Shown: piece after piece, positions 12,597-16,981 of the stretch
Numbering within the stretch: position 1 is the stretch's first letter
How the letters are laid out: every line of letters starts with the position of its first letter
Assembly (NCBI RefSeq): GCF_014518425.1
Contig: NZ_JACVCU010000001.1
Span: 1,302,001-1,366,000, forward strand
Reading direction: 5' to 3'
From: Terrabacter sp. MAHUQ-38
GTDB taxonomy: Bacteria; Actinomycetota; Actinomycetes; Actinomycetales; Dermatophilaceae
Length of the DNA stretch: 64,000 nucleotides
The notes under the pieces: generated by a model
Database searches by the model: none
What the model was told of the DNA's origin: nothing
Seen by the model: only the letters and a program-made list of their open reading frames with translations
Translations under genes and position numbers: made by a program

Positions 12597-13694
12597 TCAG
12601 TCGCGGTCACCGTCGGCCGCGCACGCCTTCCACCACGGCTCCTGGTGGGAGGTCACGACCTCGTCGACGTCGTTGCCGCTCAGGTCTATCCGCGTGCCGA
12701 CCTTCGGCGCGACCAGGCGCACGCCGCGCTCGGCCGCGGCGCGGCGCGCCCACCGGATCGGTTCGCTCCACCAGTGGGTGGCGAGGTTGAAGGTCGCCCA
12801 GTGGATCGGCAGCAGGACCGAGTCGGTCTCTCCCTTGTTGACGTCGAGGTGGGCCTCGATGGCCTGCTCGGGGTTGAGGTGGATGTCGGGCCAGTGGACG
12901 CTGTACGCGCCGATCGGGATGATCGTCAGGTCGAAGGGGCCGAGGTCGGCGCCGATGTCGGCGTAGCGGTGCGTGGGCCCGGAGTCACCGCCGAAGAAGA
13001 CGGCGTGGTGCGGACCGCGCAGCGCCCAGGCGGCCCACAGCGTCTGGTTGCGCACGAAGCCTCGACCGGAGAAGTGCCGGGCCTCGCAGCAGGTGATCCG
13101 GATGCCCGCGACCTCGGTCTCCTCGCGCCAGTCGAGCGTCGTGACGCGAGCCGCCGGCACCCCCCAGGCGCGCAGGTGCTCGTCGACGCCGAGCGGCACG
13201 ACGTAGTGCGGCCGGTGGCTGCGCTCGAGCTGCTTGATCGACGGCTCGTCGAGGTGGTCGTAGTGGTCGTGGCTGATGACCACGGCGTCCAGGCGCGGGA
13301 TCTCGGCGATGCCGCCCGGGACCGGGTGCATCCGCTTGGGACCCACGAGCATCGAGGGTGACACGCGGTCGCCGAACACCGGGTCGAGCAGGAACCGGCG
13401 CCCGTCGAGCTCGACGACGCTCGTCGCGTGGCCGTACCACGTGACGGCGAGTTCGGCGGGCTCCGCCGGGTGCCGGGGCGTCACGAGCGGCACGGCGCCG
13501 CCGGGCTTCCCGCGGCCGCGCTCACGCACCATCGTGGCCAGCACGCTGCCAGGCCCCTCGGCCTCGGCCGTGACGACCACGTGCGTCGGCTCGTGCGAGC
13601 GGAACTCACCGTCGCGGTAGTTCGGCGACGCAGCGACCCGGCGGCGCACCGCCCCGGTCGTCGCACCCATCCGTCGGAGGATCGGTAGCTGCAC
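12597..13694 (-). CDS. MBL-fold metal-dependent hydrolase (UlaG/NAPE-PLD-like), copy A
   Basis: Metallo-beta-lactamase-fold hydrolase, 365 aa. The metal motif is VVISHDHYDHLDEPSIKQLE, with later ligands in CCEARHFSGRG and FGGDSGPTHRY, and HWATFNLATHWWSEP at the C-terminus. The layout matches the subgroup that includes bacterial NAPE-PLD-like phosphodiesterases, so a phospholipid-type substrate is possible but unproven. I start at GTG 13694, preceded by AGGAG with a 7-nt gap; the frame remains open to 13859 without support. The next gene upstream is a clear paralogue in the same direction, evidence of tandem duplication. Confidence 0.85.
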   Translation of the reverse strand: MQLPILRRMGATTGAVRRRVAASPNYRDGEFRSHEPTHVVVTAEAEGPGSVLATMVRERGRGKPGGAVPLVTPRHPAEPAELAVTWYGHATSVVELDGRRFLLDPVFGDRVSPSMLVGPKRMHPVPGGIAEIPRLDAVVISHDHYDHLDEPSIKQLERSHRPHYVVPLGVDEHLRAWGVPAARVTTLDWREETEVAGIRITCCEARHFSGRGFVRNQTLWAAWALRGPHHAVFFGGDSGPTHRYADIGADLGPFDLTIIPIGAYSVHWPDIHLNPEQAIEAHLDVNKGETDSVLLPIHWATFNLATHWWSEPIRWARRAAAERGVRLVAPKVGTRIDLSGNDVDEVVTSHQEPWWKACAADGDRD

Positions 13695-13819
13695 GGCATT
13701 TCTCCTGCTCTGCTCGTCACGGGCCGGCCCAGCGGTTGCAGGGCTGCCGTCATTCTCGTCCAGCGTCGCGCGGCCCGCCCGAGTTCCCGGGGTGCGTCGA
13801 GGTGACGGTCCTGTGAACG

Positions 13820-15136
13820 TCAGTCGCGGTCTTCCGGGGCCGCGCACGCCTCCCACCACAGGTGGGCGTGCGCGGCCGCGACCGTGGCGGCGTCACCGGC
13901 GGCGGCGTCGAGCCGCTCACCGACCCGAGGGAACGCGACGGGGACCTGCGCCTCGGCCGCGGCGCGGCGCAGGCGGCGTACGGGCTCGGCCCACCAGTGC
14001 ATCGAGAGGTTGAACGTGGCCCAGTGGACGGGGACGAGCAGCGACTCCCGGGCCGCGGTCTGCACGGTCCGCGTGGTCGACGTCGGCTCACCCTCCTCGT
14101 ACGTGCCACCGGGGGTGTCGATGCGCTGGTCGCCGGCGATGAACCCGTCGGCGACGCCCGCCTGGTCGGCGGTGGCGCCCTCGGCGTCGGTGCCGACGCG
14201 GTTGACGTCACGGTGCGCGGCGAGTGCCTGTTCGGGGTCCATGTGGATGTCGGGCCAGAAGGGGTCGTAGGCGCCGACCGGCATGAGCGTCAGGTCGAAC
14301 GGGCCGAGGTCGGCGCCGATGGCGGCGAAGCGCTTGGACGTGCCGGAGTCGCCCGCGTAGTACGCGCTGTGCCGTGGACCGCGTAGCGCCCAGCCGGCCC
14401 AGAGCGTCTGGCTGTCGACGAGGCCGCGACCGGAGTTGTGACGGGCCTCTGTGCAGGTCAGGCGGATGCCGGCGACCTCGGTCTCGCCGCGCCAGTCGAG
14501 GGCGGTGATGCGGTCCTCGGGCACGCCCCAGGCGAGCAGGTGGGCGTTGACGCCGAGCGGCACGACGTAGTGCGGACGGTGCGTCTCCTCCAGCCGGACG
14601 ACCGACGGCTGGTCGAGGTGGTCGTAGTGGTCGTGGCTGACGAGGACGGCGTCGATGCTCGGCAGCTGCGCGATCGATCCTGGAACCGGGTGCATCCGCC
14701 TCGGACCGGCGTGGCGGATCGGTGAGACGCGCTCGCTGAACACGGGGTCGATGAGGAAGCGTGCGCCGTCGATCTCGAGCACGCTCGTCGCGTGGCCGTA
14801 CCACGTGACGGCCAGCTCGCCCGGCTGCTGGGGCGGGTCGGCGGGCACGACCGGCACGGTGCCGACGGGCTGCCCGCGGCCGCTGACCCGGATCGCGGCG
14901 ATGAGCGCGCTGGTCTGGGCACGCACCCGCGGACGCAGGGACGGCTCCTCTCCCTCGAAGCGACGGTGCGTGAAGTTCGGCGAGTCCTTGACGAGGGGCA
15001 GGATCGCCGCGGGCGAGGCGCCCATCCGGTTCATCACCCGCACGAACTGGCGGGCGCGGGTGCGCGAGGACACCCGCTCGATGACGCGTGACAGCGCGCG
15101 GACGGACGGGCGGTCGGAGGTTCCCAGGCTGCGCAT
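13820..15136 (-). CDS. MBL-fold metal-dependent hydrolase (UlaG/NAPE-PLD-like), copy B
   Basis: Paralogue of the neighbouring hydrolase, 438 aa. The same landmarks are present: TWYGHATSVLEIDGARFLID, LVSHDHYDHLDQPSVVRLEE, TEARHNSGRG, YAGDSGTSKRF and VHWATFNLSMHWWAEPVRRL. It differs by a longer N-terminal helix region and by an insert of about 50 residues (VGTDAEGATADQAG onward) between the last metal-site segment and HWATFNL, absent from copy A. ATG 15136 follows AAGGG. About 125 bp separate the two genes, so co-transcription is likely. Confidence 0.87.
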   Translation of the reverse strand: MRSLGTSDRPSVRALSRVIERVSSRTRARQFVRVMNRMGASPAAILPLVKDSPNFTHRRFEGEEPSLRPRVRAQTSALIAAIRVSGRGQPVGTVPVVPADPPQQPGELAVTWYGHATSVLEIDGARFLIDPVFSERVSPIRHAGPRRMHPVPGSIAQLPSIDAVLVSHDHYDHLDQPSVVRLEETHRPHYVVPLGVNAHLLAWGVPEDRITALDWRGETEVAGIRLTCTEARHNSGRGLVDSQTLWAGWALRGPRHSAYYAGDSGTSKRFAAIGADLGPFDLTLMPVGAYDPFWPDIHMDPEQALAAHRDVNRVGTDAEGATADQAGVADGFIAGDQRIDTPGGTYEEGEPTSTTRTVQTAARESLLVPVHWATFNLSMHWWAEPVRRLRRAAAEAQVPVAFPRVGERLDAAAGDAATVAAAHAHLWWEACAAPEDRD

Positions 15137-15207: not shown

Positions 15208-15236
15208 TTGACGTGACACCACAGTGGTGTCATAGT
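15208..15236 (+). promoter_or_regulatory. promoter of the RHH gene (TTGACG, 17-bp spacer, CATAGT)
   Basis: A -35 TTGACG (15208-15213) and -10 CATAGT (15231-15236) stand 17 bp apart. Transcription should begin near 15243, beside ATG 15244, making the mRNA leaderless. Confidence 0.6.
15214..15232. promoter_or_regulatory. operator O1, TGACACC-N5-GGTGTCA
   Basis: TGACACCACAGTGGTGTCA is an exact inverted repeat (9-bp arms, one central base) filling the spacer between -35 and -10. A protein bound here would block polymerase, so it is a repressor site, probably for the ribbon-helix-helix product encoded just downstream. Confidence 0.7.
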
Positions 15237-15243
15237 GATGCAC

Positions 15244-15795
15244 ATGGACATCACGGAGTACGTCGACGCACTGCGTCGCGATCTCGCCCAGGCGGCCAGG
15301 GCGATGGGTCCCGAGACCGAGCAGGCCGCCGAGAGGATCGGCTTCGCGCTCGACTCCTCGGCCCGTCTCGCGCTCATGGATGCGCTGTCGCAGGCTGCAG
15401 CCGAGATCACCAACGAGCTCGAGGGCACCTCGGTCGAGGTCCGCCTGCAGGGCCGCGAGCCCGTCTTCGTCGTCGTGGGGGGCGGCCCCTCGGCCGTCGC
15501 CGACGACACACAGGCCATCGACGCGGCTGACACCAATGCGGTGTCATCCGACGACGAGGGTCCCGAGACGGCACGCATCACGCTCCGCCTGCCCGAGGCC
15601 CTCAAGGCCCGCGCGGAGGAGCTCGCCACCGGCCGCGGCCAGTCGCTCAACACGTGGATCGTCAACGCCGTCCGCGCGGCCACGGCGTCAGGCGTCACCG
15701 TCAACATCGGGGCGCAGCTCGGGCCGCAGTTCGGCCCCGGGGCCCCGGGTCGCAACCGCTCCTCCAACAAGCGTGTGCAGGGCTGGGTCCGCTGA
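15244..15795 (+). CDS. ribbon-helix-helix (HicB/Arc-like) DNA-binding protein, likely autorepressor
   Basis: About 183 aa. The N-terminal part (DITEYVDALRRDLAQAARAM to ~residue 60) is helical and of unknown function. A short beta-like segment and a flexible linker follow. The C-terminal segment ARITLRLPEALKARAEELA then GQSLNTWIVNAVRAA (about 110-150) is a ribbon-helix-helix DNA-binding fold as in HicB/Arc antitoxins. ATG 15244 is preferred because the promoter places the transcript start there; ATG 15238 and GTG 15235 are in frame. No toxin-like partner is beside it: the next gene is a DUF4097 protein. The linker DNA contains a second copy of the promoter operator. Confidence 0.82.
   Translation: MDITEYVDALRRDLAQAARAMGPETEQAAERIGFALDSSARLALMDALSQAAAEITNELEGTSVEVRLQGREPVFVVVGGGPSAVADDTQAIDAADTNAVSSDDEGPETARITLRLPEALKARAEELATGRGQSLNTWIVNAVRAATASGVTVNIGAQLGPQFGPGAPGRNRSSNKRVQGWVR
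15528..15546. promoter_or_regulatory. operator O2 inside the RHH gene, TGACACC-N5-GGTGTCA
   Basis: TGACACCAATGCGGTGTCA repeats the half-sites and 5-bp gap of O1. Its centre is 314 bp from that of O1, close to 30 helical turns. It falls in the interdomain linker and forces the codons AAT and TCA, unusual in this GC-rich gene. Confidence 0.6.
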
Positions 15796-15848: not shown

Positions 15849-16712
15849 ATGGACAACCAGTACGAGCGCAACTTCGAGACGACAGGCCCGGTCAACCTCA
15901 AGGTCGAGCTGCTCGCGGGTGACGTCAAGCTCACCGCGACCGACACGACCGCCACGTCCGTGCGGCTCGTCCCGCGGGGACGGGGCGGTGAAGAGCTCGC
16001 CGAGCGCTTCACGGTCGAGGCACGAGGCAACGACGTCGTCGTCATCGCACCCAAGAAGGAGAGCCTCTTCGGCTTCAGCAAGGGCTCGGTCGACGTCGAG
16101 GTGGACCTGCCCGTGGGCAGCACCGTCGACGTCAGGACCGGATCCGGTGACGTCACGGCCTCCGGGCTGCTCGGCGACGTCCGGGCCGCCACCGGGTCGG
16201 GTGACCTCACCTTCCACGAGGTCGGCGAGGCTGACCTCAAGTCGGGCTCGGGTGACATCACCCTCCAGTCGACGACCGGCGACGCCGACATCAAGACGGG
16301 GTCGGGTGACGTCACCGTCGGCACGGCCGGGGGCCGGCTCGACCTCGTGTCGGGCAGCGGCGACATCAACCTGCGTCGGTCGGACGCGCCGGTCAAGGCC
16401 AAGACGGGGTCCGGCGACCTGCGCATCGGCGCCTCCACCGGCGACCTCGACCTCATGACGGGCACCGGCGACGTCACGCTCGCGGGCGTGCACGGCGGCG
16501 AGGTGCGGGCCAAGACCGGCACCGGAGACGTCAGCATCGGCGTCGCCAACGGCGTCGCGGCCTACCTCGACCTCAACACCGTCACCGGCGATGTCGGTAT
16601 CGCCCTCGAGGAGGCGTCCGGCCCCGGCGACTCCGAGGCCCGGGCCAAGCTGGTGGTCCACTCCGGCAGCGGCGACATCCGGGTCAAGCGGGCGCAGGTG
16701 AGCCTCTCATGA
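15849..16712 (+). CDS. DUF4097-family beta-repeat protein
   Basis: Protein of 287 aa made almost wholly of short repeats such as TGSGDVTASGLLGDVRA, KSGSGDITLQSTTGDADI, KTGSGDVTVGTAGGRLDL and MTGTGDVTLAGVHGGEVR, each about 19 residues. This is the pattern of the DUF4097 family, predicted to fold as a right-handed beta helix or stacked sheet. No signal peptide or membrane segment is visible, so it is probably cytoplasmic. Function unknown. ATG 15849 has AAGG eight bases upstream. It lies 53 bp after the RHH gene and overlaps the next small gene by ATGA, so it is part of an RHH-controlled operon. Confidence 0.88.
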   Translation: MDNQYERNFETTGPVNLKVELLAGDVKLTATDTTATSVRLVPRGRGGEELAERFTVEARGNDVVVIAPKKESLFGFSKGSVDVEVDLPVGSTVDVRTGSGDVTASGLLGDVRAATGSGDLTFHEVGEADLKSGSGDITLQSTTGDADIKTGSGDVTVGTAGGRLDLVSGSGDINLRRSDAPVKAKTGSGDLRIGASTGDLDLMTGTGDVTLAGVHGGEVRAKTGTGDVSIGVANGVAAYLDLNTVTGDVGIALEEASGPGDSEARAKLVVHSGSGDIRVKRAQVSLS

Positions 16713-16981
16713 GCACCGGGACCCTGAGCTTCACACCGCAGGAGGCACTGGCGCGCGAGCTGATCCTCGAGCGCTCGGCCGCCCGGCACCACGCGCCCAG
16801 GCAGGCGCCTCGCACCCGCCGGCACGTCCGCGCAGCCCTCCTGCTGCGCAGCCTCGCCGAGCGCCTCGACCCCTCGGCTGGGACGGCGGGCCGCCCCAGC
16901 CGACGGGCCCCGGTGCCCCACGCCCGAAGCCCGCGGCCGTGGTCGGCGGCGCCTCGTCGCACGCCGCACCGGCACACCTGA
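16709..16981 (+). CDS. small basic protein of unknown function
   Basis: 90 aa, starting in the ATGA overlap with the DUF4097 gene. The N-terminal half (SFTPQEALARELILERSAAR, then RHVRAALLLRSLAERLD) could form two amphipathic helices; the second half is Pro/Arg/Ser-rich and probably disordered. No family recognised. The tight coupling argues that it is translated with DUF4097 and may be its partner. Confidence 0.6.
   Translation: MSTGTLSFTPQEALARELILERSAARHHAPRQAPRTRRHVRAALLLRSLAERLDPSAGTAGRPSRRAPVPHARSPRPWSAAPRRTPHRHT

Follow-up and report, generated by a model that had tools for sequence, protein, structure and literature searches.

Promoter boxes repeated within the coding sequence of a ribbon-helix-helix regulator gene in Terrabacter and its relatives: a probable autorepressor with a movable auxiliary operator

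The stretch of DNA analysed here, referred to as the window, comprises 64,000 nt of the genome of Terrabacter sp. MAHUQ-38. On its plus strand, a gene at 15244-15795 specifies a protein of 183 amino acids, which consists of an N-terminal domain of unknown fold, a linker, and a C-terminal ribbon-helix-helix (RHH) domain. The identification as an RHH regulator, already proposed in the initial annotation of the sequence, is borne out by orthologues and by a match of residues 111-142 to the HicB family PF05534 (E 2.9e-6, 27.5 bits, above the gathering score of 21). The RHH sequence signature is also present in all 12 members of set A1, which match the same family. Searches against solved protein chains yielded no match better than E 0.088. 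The GTG codon at 15235, taken from the list of open reading frames, was considered as the translational start, but homology supports the ATG at 15244 instead. The next gene (15849-16712, plus strand) codes for a DUF4097 (Toastrack) protein of 287 amino acids (PF13349, E 8.8e-21) and presumably belongs to the same operon. The predicted partnership of the two genes holds well beyond the window: among 192 orthologues for which 500 nt or more of downstream sequence was available, 188 have a DUF4097-like ORF within 1.2 kb downstream. A third ORF on the same strand (16709-16981), overlapping the DUF4097 stop codon, specifies a small protein of 90 amino acids for which no Pfam or NCBIfam match was detected at E values up to 1; relatives of it were found at 15 of the 20 named loci searched. 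Upstream, two tandem, similar-looking ORFs for MBL-fold hydrolases are located on the minus strand at 12597-13859 and 13820-15136. The nearer one is divergent from the RHH promoter and was the one covered by the Pfam search. A HicA toxin gene was not found among the immediate neighbours searched, namely the nearer MBL-fold protein, the DUF4097 protein and the family-less small protein, and PADLOC gave no match for the three operon proteins.

Relatives of the RHH gene were gathered from all nine genomes of the window's genus, from named genomes (20 loci, several of them from the genus again, Terrabacter and kin), from the family (66 of 186 genomes), from the class (133 of 394 genomes), and by added searches of single genera (4 of 9, 14 of 40 and 11 of 13 genomes). 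In total, 195 distinct genes of the class Actinomycetes were obtained, distinctness being judged on the first 300 nt. From the class search, 117 of the 138 match rows were taken in (110, plus seven via the genus searches) and 21 were left out, while all 66 family rows were used. Counts given below for 177 relatives are those in which L126 was left out of 178, its start not being located; in a later set the starts were re-derived and all 195 genes kept. Counts given for 194 orthologues omit L027, which has a short upstream stretch. The tree of the orthologues was built from 110 columns and contains many unresolved forks.

The initial annotation had noted two copies of the palindrome TGACACC-N5-GGTGTCA. 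Both are present as exact matches, at 15214-15232 in front of the RHH gene and at 15528-15546 within it, with their centres 314 bp or 29.9 turns apart at 10.5 bp per turn. In the whole genome of 5.16 Mb these are the only two exact sites, so the search for further sites suggested along with the annotation did not add a third. When up to two mismatches were tolerated, 15 further genomic sites appeared, all with two mismatches and none with one; a reversed control pattern gave four. Allowing three mismatches within the window produced four sites, 3.4 being expected, which is uninformative.

The first copy is part of a promoter. A consensus scan identified a -35 hexamer, TTGACG, at 15208-15213 and a -10 hexamer, CATAGT, at 15231-15236, both on the plus strand and separated by 17 bp. 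This sigma-70-like promoter was the sole match of the scan between 15100 and 16800 (shuffle mean 0.0), and 170 of 195 orthologues contain TTGAC or TTGC between -40 and -28. The palindrome had been described as filling the spacer between the two hexamers; it does occupy 15214-15230, but it also overlaps the -10 hexamer by 2 bp. Since the ATG at 15244 is placed 7 nt past the -10 hexamer, a leaderless start, as proposed before, is plausible.

Alignment of the orthologues at their start codons revealed a consensus box of 8 bp, TGRYRYCA, which recurs with a period of about 11 bp. In the window, promoter box 1 (TGACACCA, 15214-15221) and promoter box 2 (TGGTGTCA, 15225-15232) are found 11 bp apart on the plus strand. 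If a single mismatch is tolerated, the slot of box 1 is occupied in 189 and that of box 2 in 187 of 194 orthologues. A third slot at 15236-15243 (TGATGCAC) is degenerate and constitutes no box in the window, but 151 of 194 orthologues have a box there when one mismatch is tolerated, and 117 have an exact one, which ends on the A of the ATG. Nearly all orthologues have a common layout, TTGAC or TTGC followed by boxes at about -30, -19 and -8. Judged from these alignments, the palindrome is two boxes from a usually longer array. As an exact repeat the 19-bp sequence is real, but as a unit it is better described by the 8-bp box spaced at 11 bp. Arrays of boxes one helical turn apart are typical of RHH repressors, and MetJ and Arc act on tandem boxes of this kind. 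The repeated short boxes at the promoter are what is expected for an RHH repressor on a tandem operator. MetJ, Arc and other RHH repressors resemble the present family in the RHH domain and in short quasi-palindromic boxes that recur over the promoter with roughly every helical turn, whereas the TGRYRYCA sequence, the 11-bp period, the extra N-terminal domain and the presence of boxes within the coding region of the putative repressor itself set the family apart.

The second copy of the palindrome consists of internal box A, again TGACACCA, at 15528-15535 in the codons GCT GAC ACC AAT, and internal box B, CGGTGTCA, at 15539-15546, both on the plus strand. In the genus, box A is located at +284 and is exact in all nine genomes. 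Box B at +295 is an exact TGGTGTCA in seven of them, has one mismatch to the box in the window, and has two in L011, the genome of which is 74% complete. Taken as a 19-mer, the internal site is exact in eight of nine genomes with one mismatch in L011. Four Humibacillus loci contain the site at +287/+298, one or two mismatches away from the letters of the window. The alignment of orthologues that had been recommended thus revealed that the internal repeat is kept as letters beyond the protein. The base before GAC is T in all 13 loci, but the codons it completes, GCT, GAT, ACT and AGT, specify A, D, T and S, and GCT, GAT and ACT each account for only 2-4% of the codons of their own amino acid. 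A second copy of the promoter operator inside the coding sequence, conserved as DNA, is what is expected of an auxiliary intragenic operator. The rare codons AAT and TCA had been regarded as the signature of the site. This is correct for TCA (3.3% of Ser codons), and GCT (3.4% of Ala codons) likewise contributes its T to the site. AAT (1% of Asn codons), in contrast, has its T in the variable spacer and is left unexplained by the site. When the nine protein sequences are taken one by one as fixed and the codon usage of the window (29 ORFs) is applied, both half-sites are expected here with a probability of 3e-5 to 8e-5, and of 2e-4 for Humibacillus with a looser box. These values are uncorrected for position because the place was picked after it had been seen.

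Alternatively, conservation of these letters could be due to the protein or to coincidence, if the amino acids of the linker happened to share them. D-T and V-S are indeed kept in the linker throughout the genus, and about half of the codons for identical residues are invariant anyway (62 of 115 in eight genomes). Against this stand the T that stays when the amino acid before GAC varies, and the abundance of boxes in the coding sequences of all 195 genes, where 82 exact TGRYRYCA boxes were counted. In 200 synonymous shuffles, in which the proteins are retained, the mean was 9.8 and the maximum 18. When palindromic patterns built in the same way were compared, 32 in all, TGRYRYCA showed by far the greatest excess, 7.0-fold compared to 1.7-fold for the next. 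The reversed pattern used as control occurred 21 times with 11.9 expected, an excess such as kinship would give. Protein constraint or coincidence is therefore very improbable, and selection at the level of the DNA, as suggested in the initial annotation, is well supported for the internal boxes by the invariant T and by the excess over synonymous shuffles. A pooled column scan for AT-ending codons was unspecific. Codon 66 of the RHH gene of the window (alignment column 70) is located outside any box; here, 31 of 177 relatives encode Val by GTA, a codon of low frequency in these relatives.

Because kinship inflates totals, the distribution over lineages weighs more than these sums. Of the 82 coding boxes, 79 are located between +200 and +330, either within the linker or where the conserved N-terminal block ends. 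Exact coding boxes are present in 54 of the 195 genes and missing from 141, and most sampled genera are without any; the internal operator is therefore optional. On the tree, the presence of an internal box requires at least 17 changes, while shuffled labels gave a mean of 46 and a minimum of 40, so that internal boxes are clustered. From their positions, at least three placements look independent. The first is that of the window's genus and Humibacillus, starting at +284 or +287 with boxes 11 bp apart. In genus g30 of the same family, three of four genes have boxes at +259/+271 or +262/+274, and in genus g100 of family f25, five of eleven genes have them at +263/+275, the distance being 12 bp in both cases. 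The boxes of g100 differ from those of g30 in reading frame and in distance to the RHH motif. A fourth placement, at +229, is common to many genes of families f24 and f25 and a few of f26, and a near-box at +218 accompanies it in some f24 genes. Near +229, 42 of 177 relatives encode V-T-P/S. Of these, 20 end the motif with CCA or TCA (background 4% and 2%), 10 use ACA (background 2%), and 36 use GTG (background 30%). Two loci of genus g99 of f24, L167 and L213, harbor three exact coding boxes, at +229, +271 and +293, the last two being 22 bp or two periods apart.

Boxes were also noticed further downstream. In the DUF4097 gene of the window, several TGACGTCA or TGACATCA boxes occur between 15919 and 16320 within GDVT-type repeats. 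Selection for boxes was considered for this gene as well, 63 being present in the downstream ORFs of the relatives with 38 expected, but part of this excess comes from the GDVT repeats. GGT was used in 25.7% of 191 cases where it completes a box and in 19.4% of 844 others (p 0.06), and since this is no clear preference, no selection is claimed for the DUF4097 boxes.

The internal inverted repeat might alternatively act in the mRNA as a hairpin, as the copy in the window can form a stem of 7 bp with a loop of 5 nt. Its predicted fold, however, barely exceeds that of shuffled sequences (z -1.67, with 16 of 200 shuffles as good; z -0.88 for L018 and -0.42 for L167), and Rfam gave no match. In Humibacillus, TGACACCA...TGATGTCA breaks a pair of the stem but keeps both boxes. 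Moreover, many genes have a single exact box, and the same boxes are present in promoter DNA that is presumably not transcribed. An element acting at the RNA level is accordingly hardly credible.

Additional boxes were detected upstream of the promoter in many relatives. Between -110 and -41, 159 boxes were counted in 194 genes, with 2.3 expected from single-base shuffles, and their positions peak near -51, -62 and -73. Downstream of the RHH gene, up to 120 nt, only eight boxes were found with 3.2 expected; clear pairs exist solely in L060 and L163, where they are located 16-57 nt past the RHH stop codon and would represent a third type of location for auxiliary boxes. In the clade of the window, comprising 18 loci, 13 have internal boxes only, three have exact upstream boxes only, one (L044) has neither, and one (L027) could not be evaluated. 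The three Intrasporangium loci, all of those with enough upstream DNA, contain exact upstream boxes but no exact internal one, and none of the 13 internal-box loci has an exact upstream box. The picture loses sharpness once one mismatch is tolerated, as an upstream box is then recognised at eight of the 13 loci with internal boxes, and an internal box at L025 and L044. In five of the nine genomes of the genus, the upstream one-mismatch box is located at -52, and these near-boxes are perhaps relics.

The initial annotation had reasoned that an orthologue keeping the amino acids of the linker but losing the repeat would argue against an internal operator. Such a case was found in Intrasporangium flavum (L012), in which D-T-T-A-L-S is kept but spelled GAC ACG ACG GCC CTG TCG, and the repeat is gone. 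Yet this locus has two exact boxes upstream of its promoter, and because such boxes are absent from the 13 internal-box loci, the case is read as relocation of the site and not as refutation. Over the whole sample, 37 of the 88 genes that lack upstream boxes have internal ones, compared to 15 of the 106 genes in which upstream boxes are present (Fisher, 1.8e-5). These counts are suggestive of a trade-off between the two positions, but a strict one was rejected, phylogenetically independent pairs giving no significance (five supported pairs, median p 1), and upstream and internal boxes coexist in g30 and in some genomes of f24, f25 and f26. These distributions give an even chance to the idea that the auxiliary operator relocated, in several independent events, from upstream of the promoter to the DNA coding for the linker, while the fixed promoter array was kept, and that the letters of the operator partly dictate the sequence of the linker. 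Such DNA would be dual-coding, with the flexible linker of a protein as the landing place of the protein's own binding site.

Internal boxes resemble the promoter boxes of their own gene. The mean distance between box centres was 0.30 compared to 0.75 after permutation (n=51, P 2e-4, the permutation ignoring kinship). The centres are ACAC/GTGT in the lineage of the window and ACGT in g30 and in f24/f25. Within the ACGT group, the internal boxes of g30 showed no preference for their own promoters, the distance being 0.33 to these and 0.28 to the f24/f25 promoters; f26, with only four genes, has mixed boxes. Taken together, the sequence comparisons suggest that the encoded RHH protein binds both the promoter boxes and the internal boxes.

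From these data, an RHH protein that represses its own operon by means of a promoter array and a movable auxiliary operator, located within its own gene in the window, is the probable explanation. RHH dimers would bind TGRYRYCA boxes about 11 bp apart on one face of the promoter, past the -35 hexamer and up to the start codon, and the occupied array would be a barrier to RNA polymerase. Auxiliary boxes, situated upstream at about -50 to -75 in many relatives and inside the gene in the genus of the window, would form a second set that makes binding to the promoter array more frequent, for which bridging, i.e. looping, through higher-order protein contacts would be the simplest means. As the internal boxes lie in DNA for the poorly conserved interdomain linker, this stretch would serve both as codons and as operator. 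The N-terminal domain, which has no known fold, is the part that would have to form the bridge.

In the version of this idea put forward initially, both sites were thought to face the same side of the helix in a rigid self-repression loop. The 314 bp of the window and the 317 bp of Humibacillus, corresponding to 30.2 turns, would be suited for such a loop, but the interval between promoter box 1 and the first box of the coding sequence amounts to 24.6, 27.4, 27.7 or 27.8 turns in further lineages that carry internal boxes. The respective distances are 288 or 291 bp in g30, 292 bp in part of g100, and 258-259 bp in most f24/f25 genes, with single values from 265 to 326 bp elsewhere. With a range of 258 to 326 bp, or 24.6 to 31 turns, there is no constant helical phase, and the argument from helical phase fails. 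A distance constant within the genus is explained by the absence of indels from the protein there. A rigid, phased loop is therefore unsupported and rather improbable.

The lack of a conserved phase to the promoter would also be compatible with a roadblock, in which the same protein, bound to the internal boxes, stops elongating RNA polymerase and thereby shuts off the downstream part of the RHH gene and DUF4097 more tightly, no loop being formed. The internal boxes are indeed within the transcribed region and upstream of DUF4097, the neighbour so widely kept downstream of the RHH gene. A roadblock could not, however, act from the many extra boxes upstream of the promoter, and the single exact internal boxes of many genomes would make weak roadblocks. 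We consider this mechanism unlikely, though somewhat less so than the rigid loop, and infer from the occurrence of auxiliary boxes upstream as well that bridging is to be favoured.

Auxiliary operators inside genes are known from HTH proteins of the LacI family, lac O2, gal OI and purR O2 being examples. Like the proposed internal operator, these are auxiliary sites that a repressor binds within a coding sequence of the very unit it regulates, and purR, being autoregulated, is the nearest of them. In contrast, the protein considered here belongs to the RHH type, and the site is located in the linker DNA of the putative repressor's own gene, at several places depending on lineage, and upstream in other relatives. 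The RHH part resembles the HicB antitoxin family, PF05534, scoring above its gathering threshold, but no HicA is encoded directly beside the RHH gene, the N-terminal domain is unmatched, and the next gene codes for DUF4097. An actinobacterial operon with an RHH transcription factor and a Toastrack (DUF4097-type) gene has been mentioned [PMC11237479]. It also contains transport genes, and the text concerning gene neighbourhoods does not mention operators; the likeness drawn here is one of gene content. Among the matches listed from the open-access literature, including PMC11237479 and PMC2978694, there was no account of a TGRYRYCA operator or of intragenic copies, although one may exist in print, subscription journals being mostly outside this scope. 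Likewise, no study of an RHH regulator beside DUF4097 was among the matches listed from the open-access literature.

The boxes described here offer a class-wide, testable operator code for the RHH regulator adjoining DUF4097. Genes with an upstream site, an intragenic site, both, or no auxiliary site represent a natural series of replicates for how auxiliary operators arise and move, and the lineages could be used as ready-made variants of loop length and phase. If the interpretation is true, the linker of a protein would be constrained by the DNA binding of that very protein, a case of overlapping codes in bacteria.
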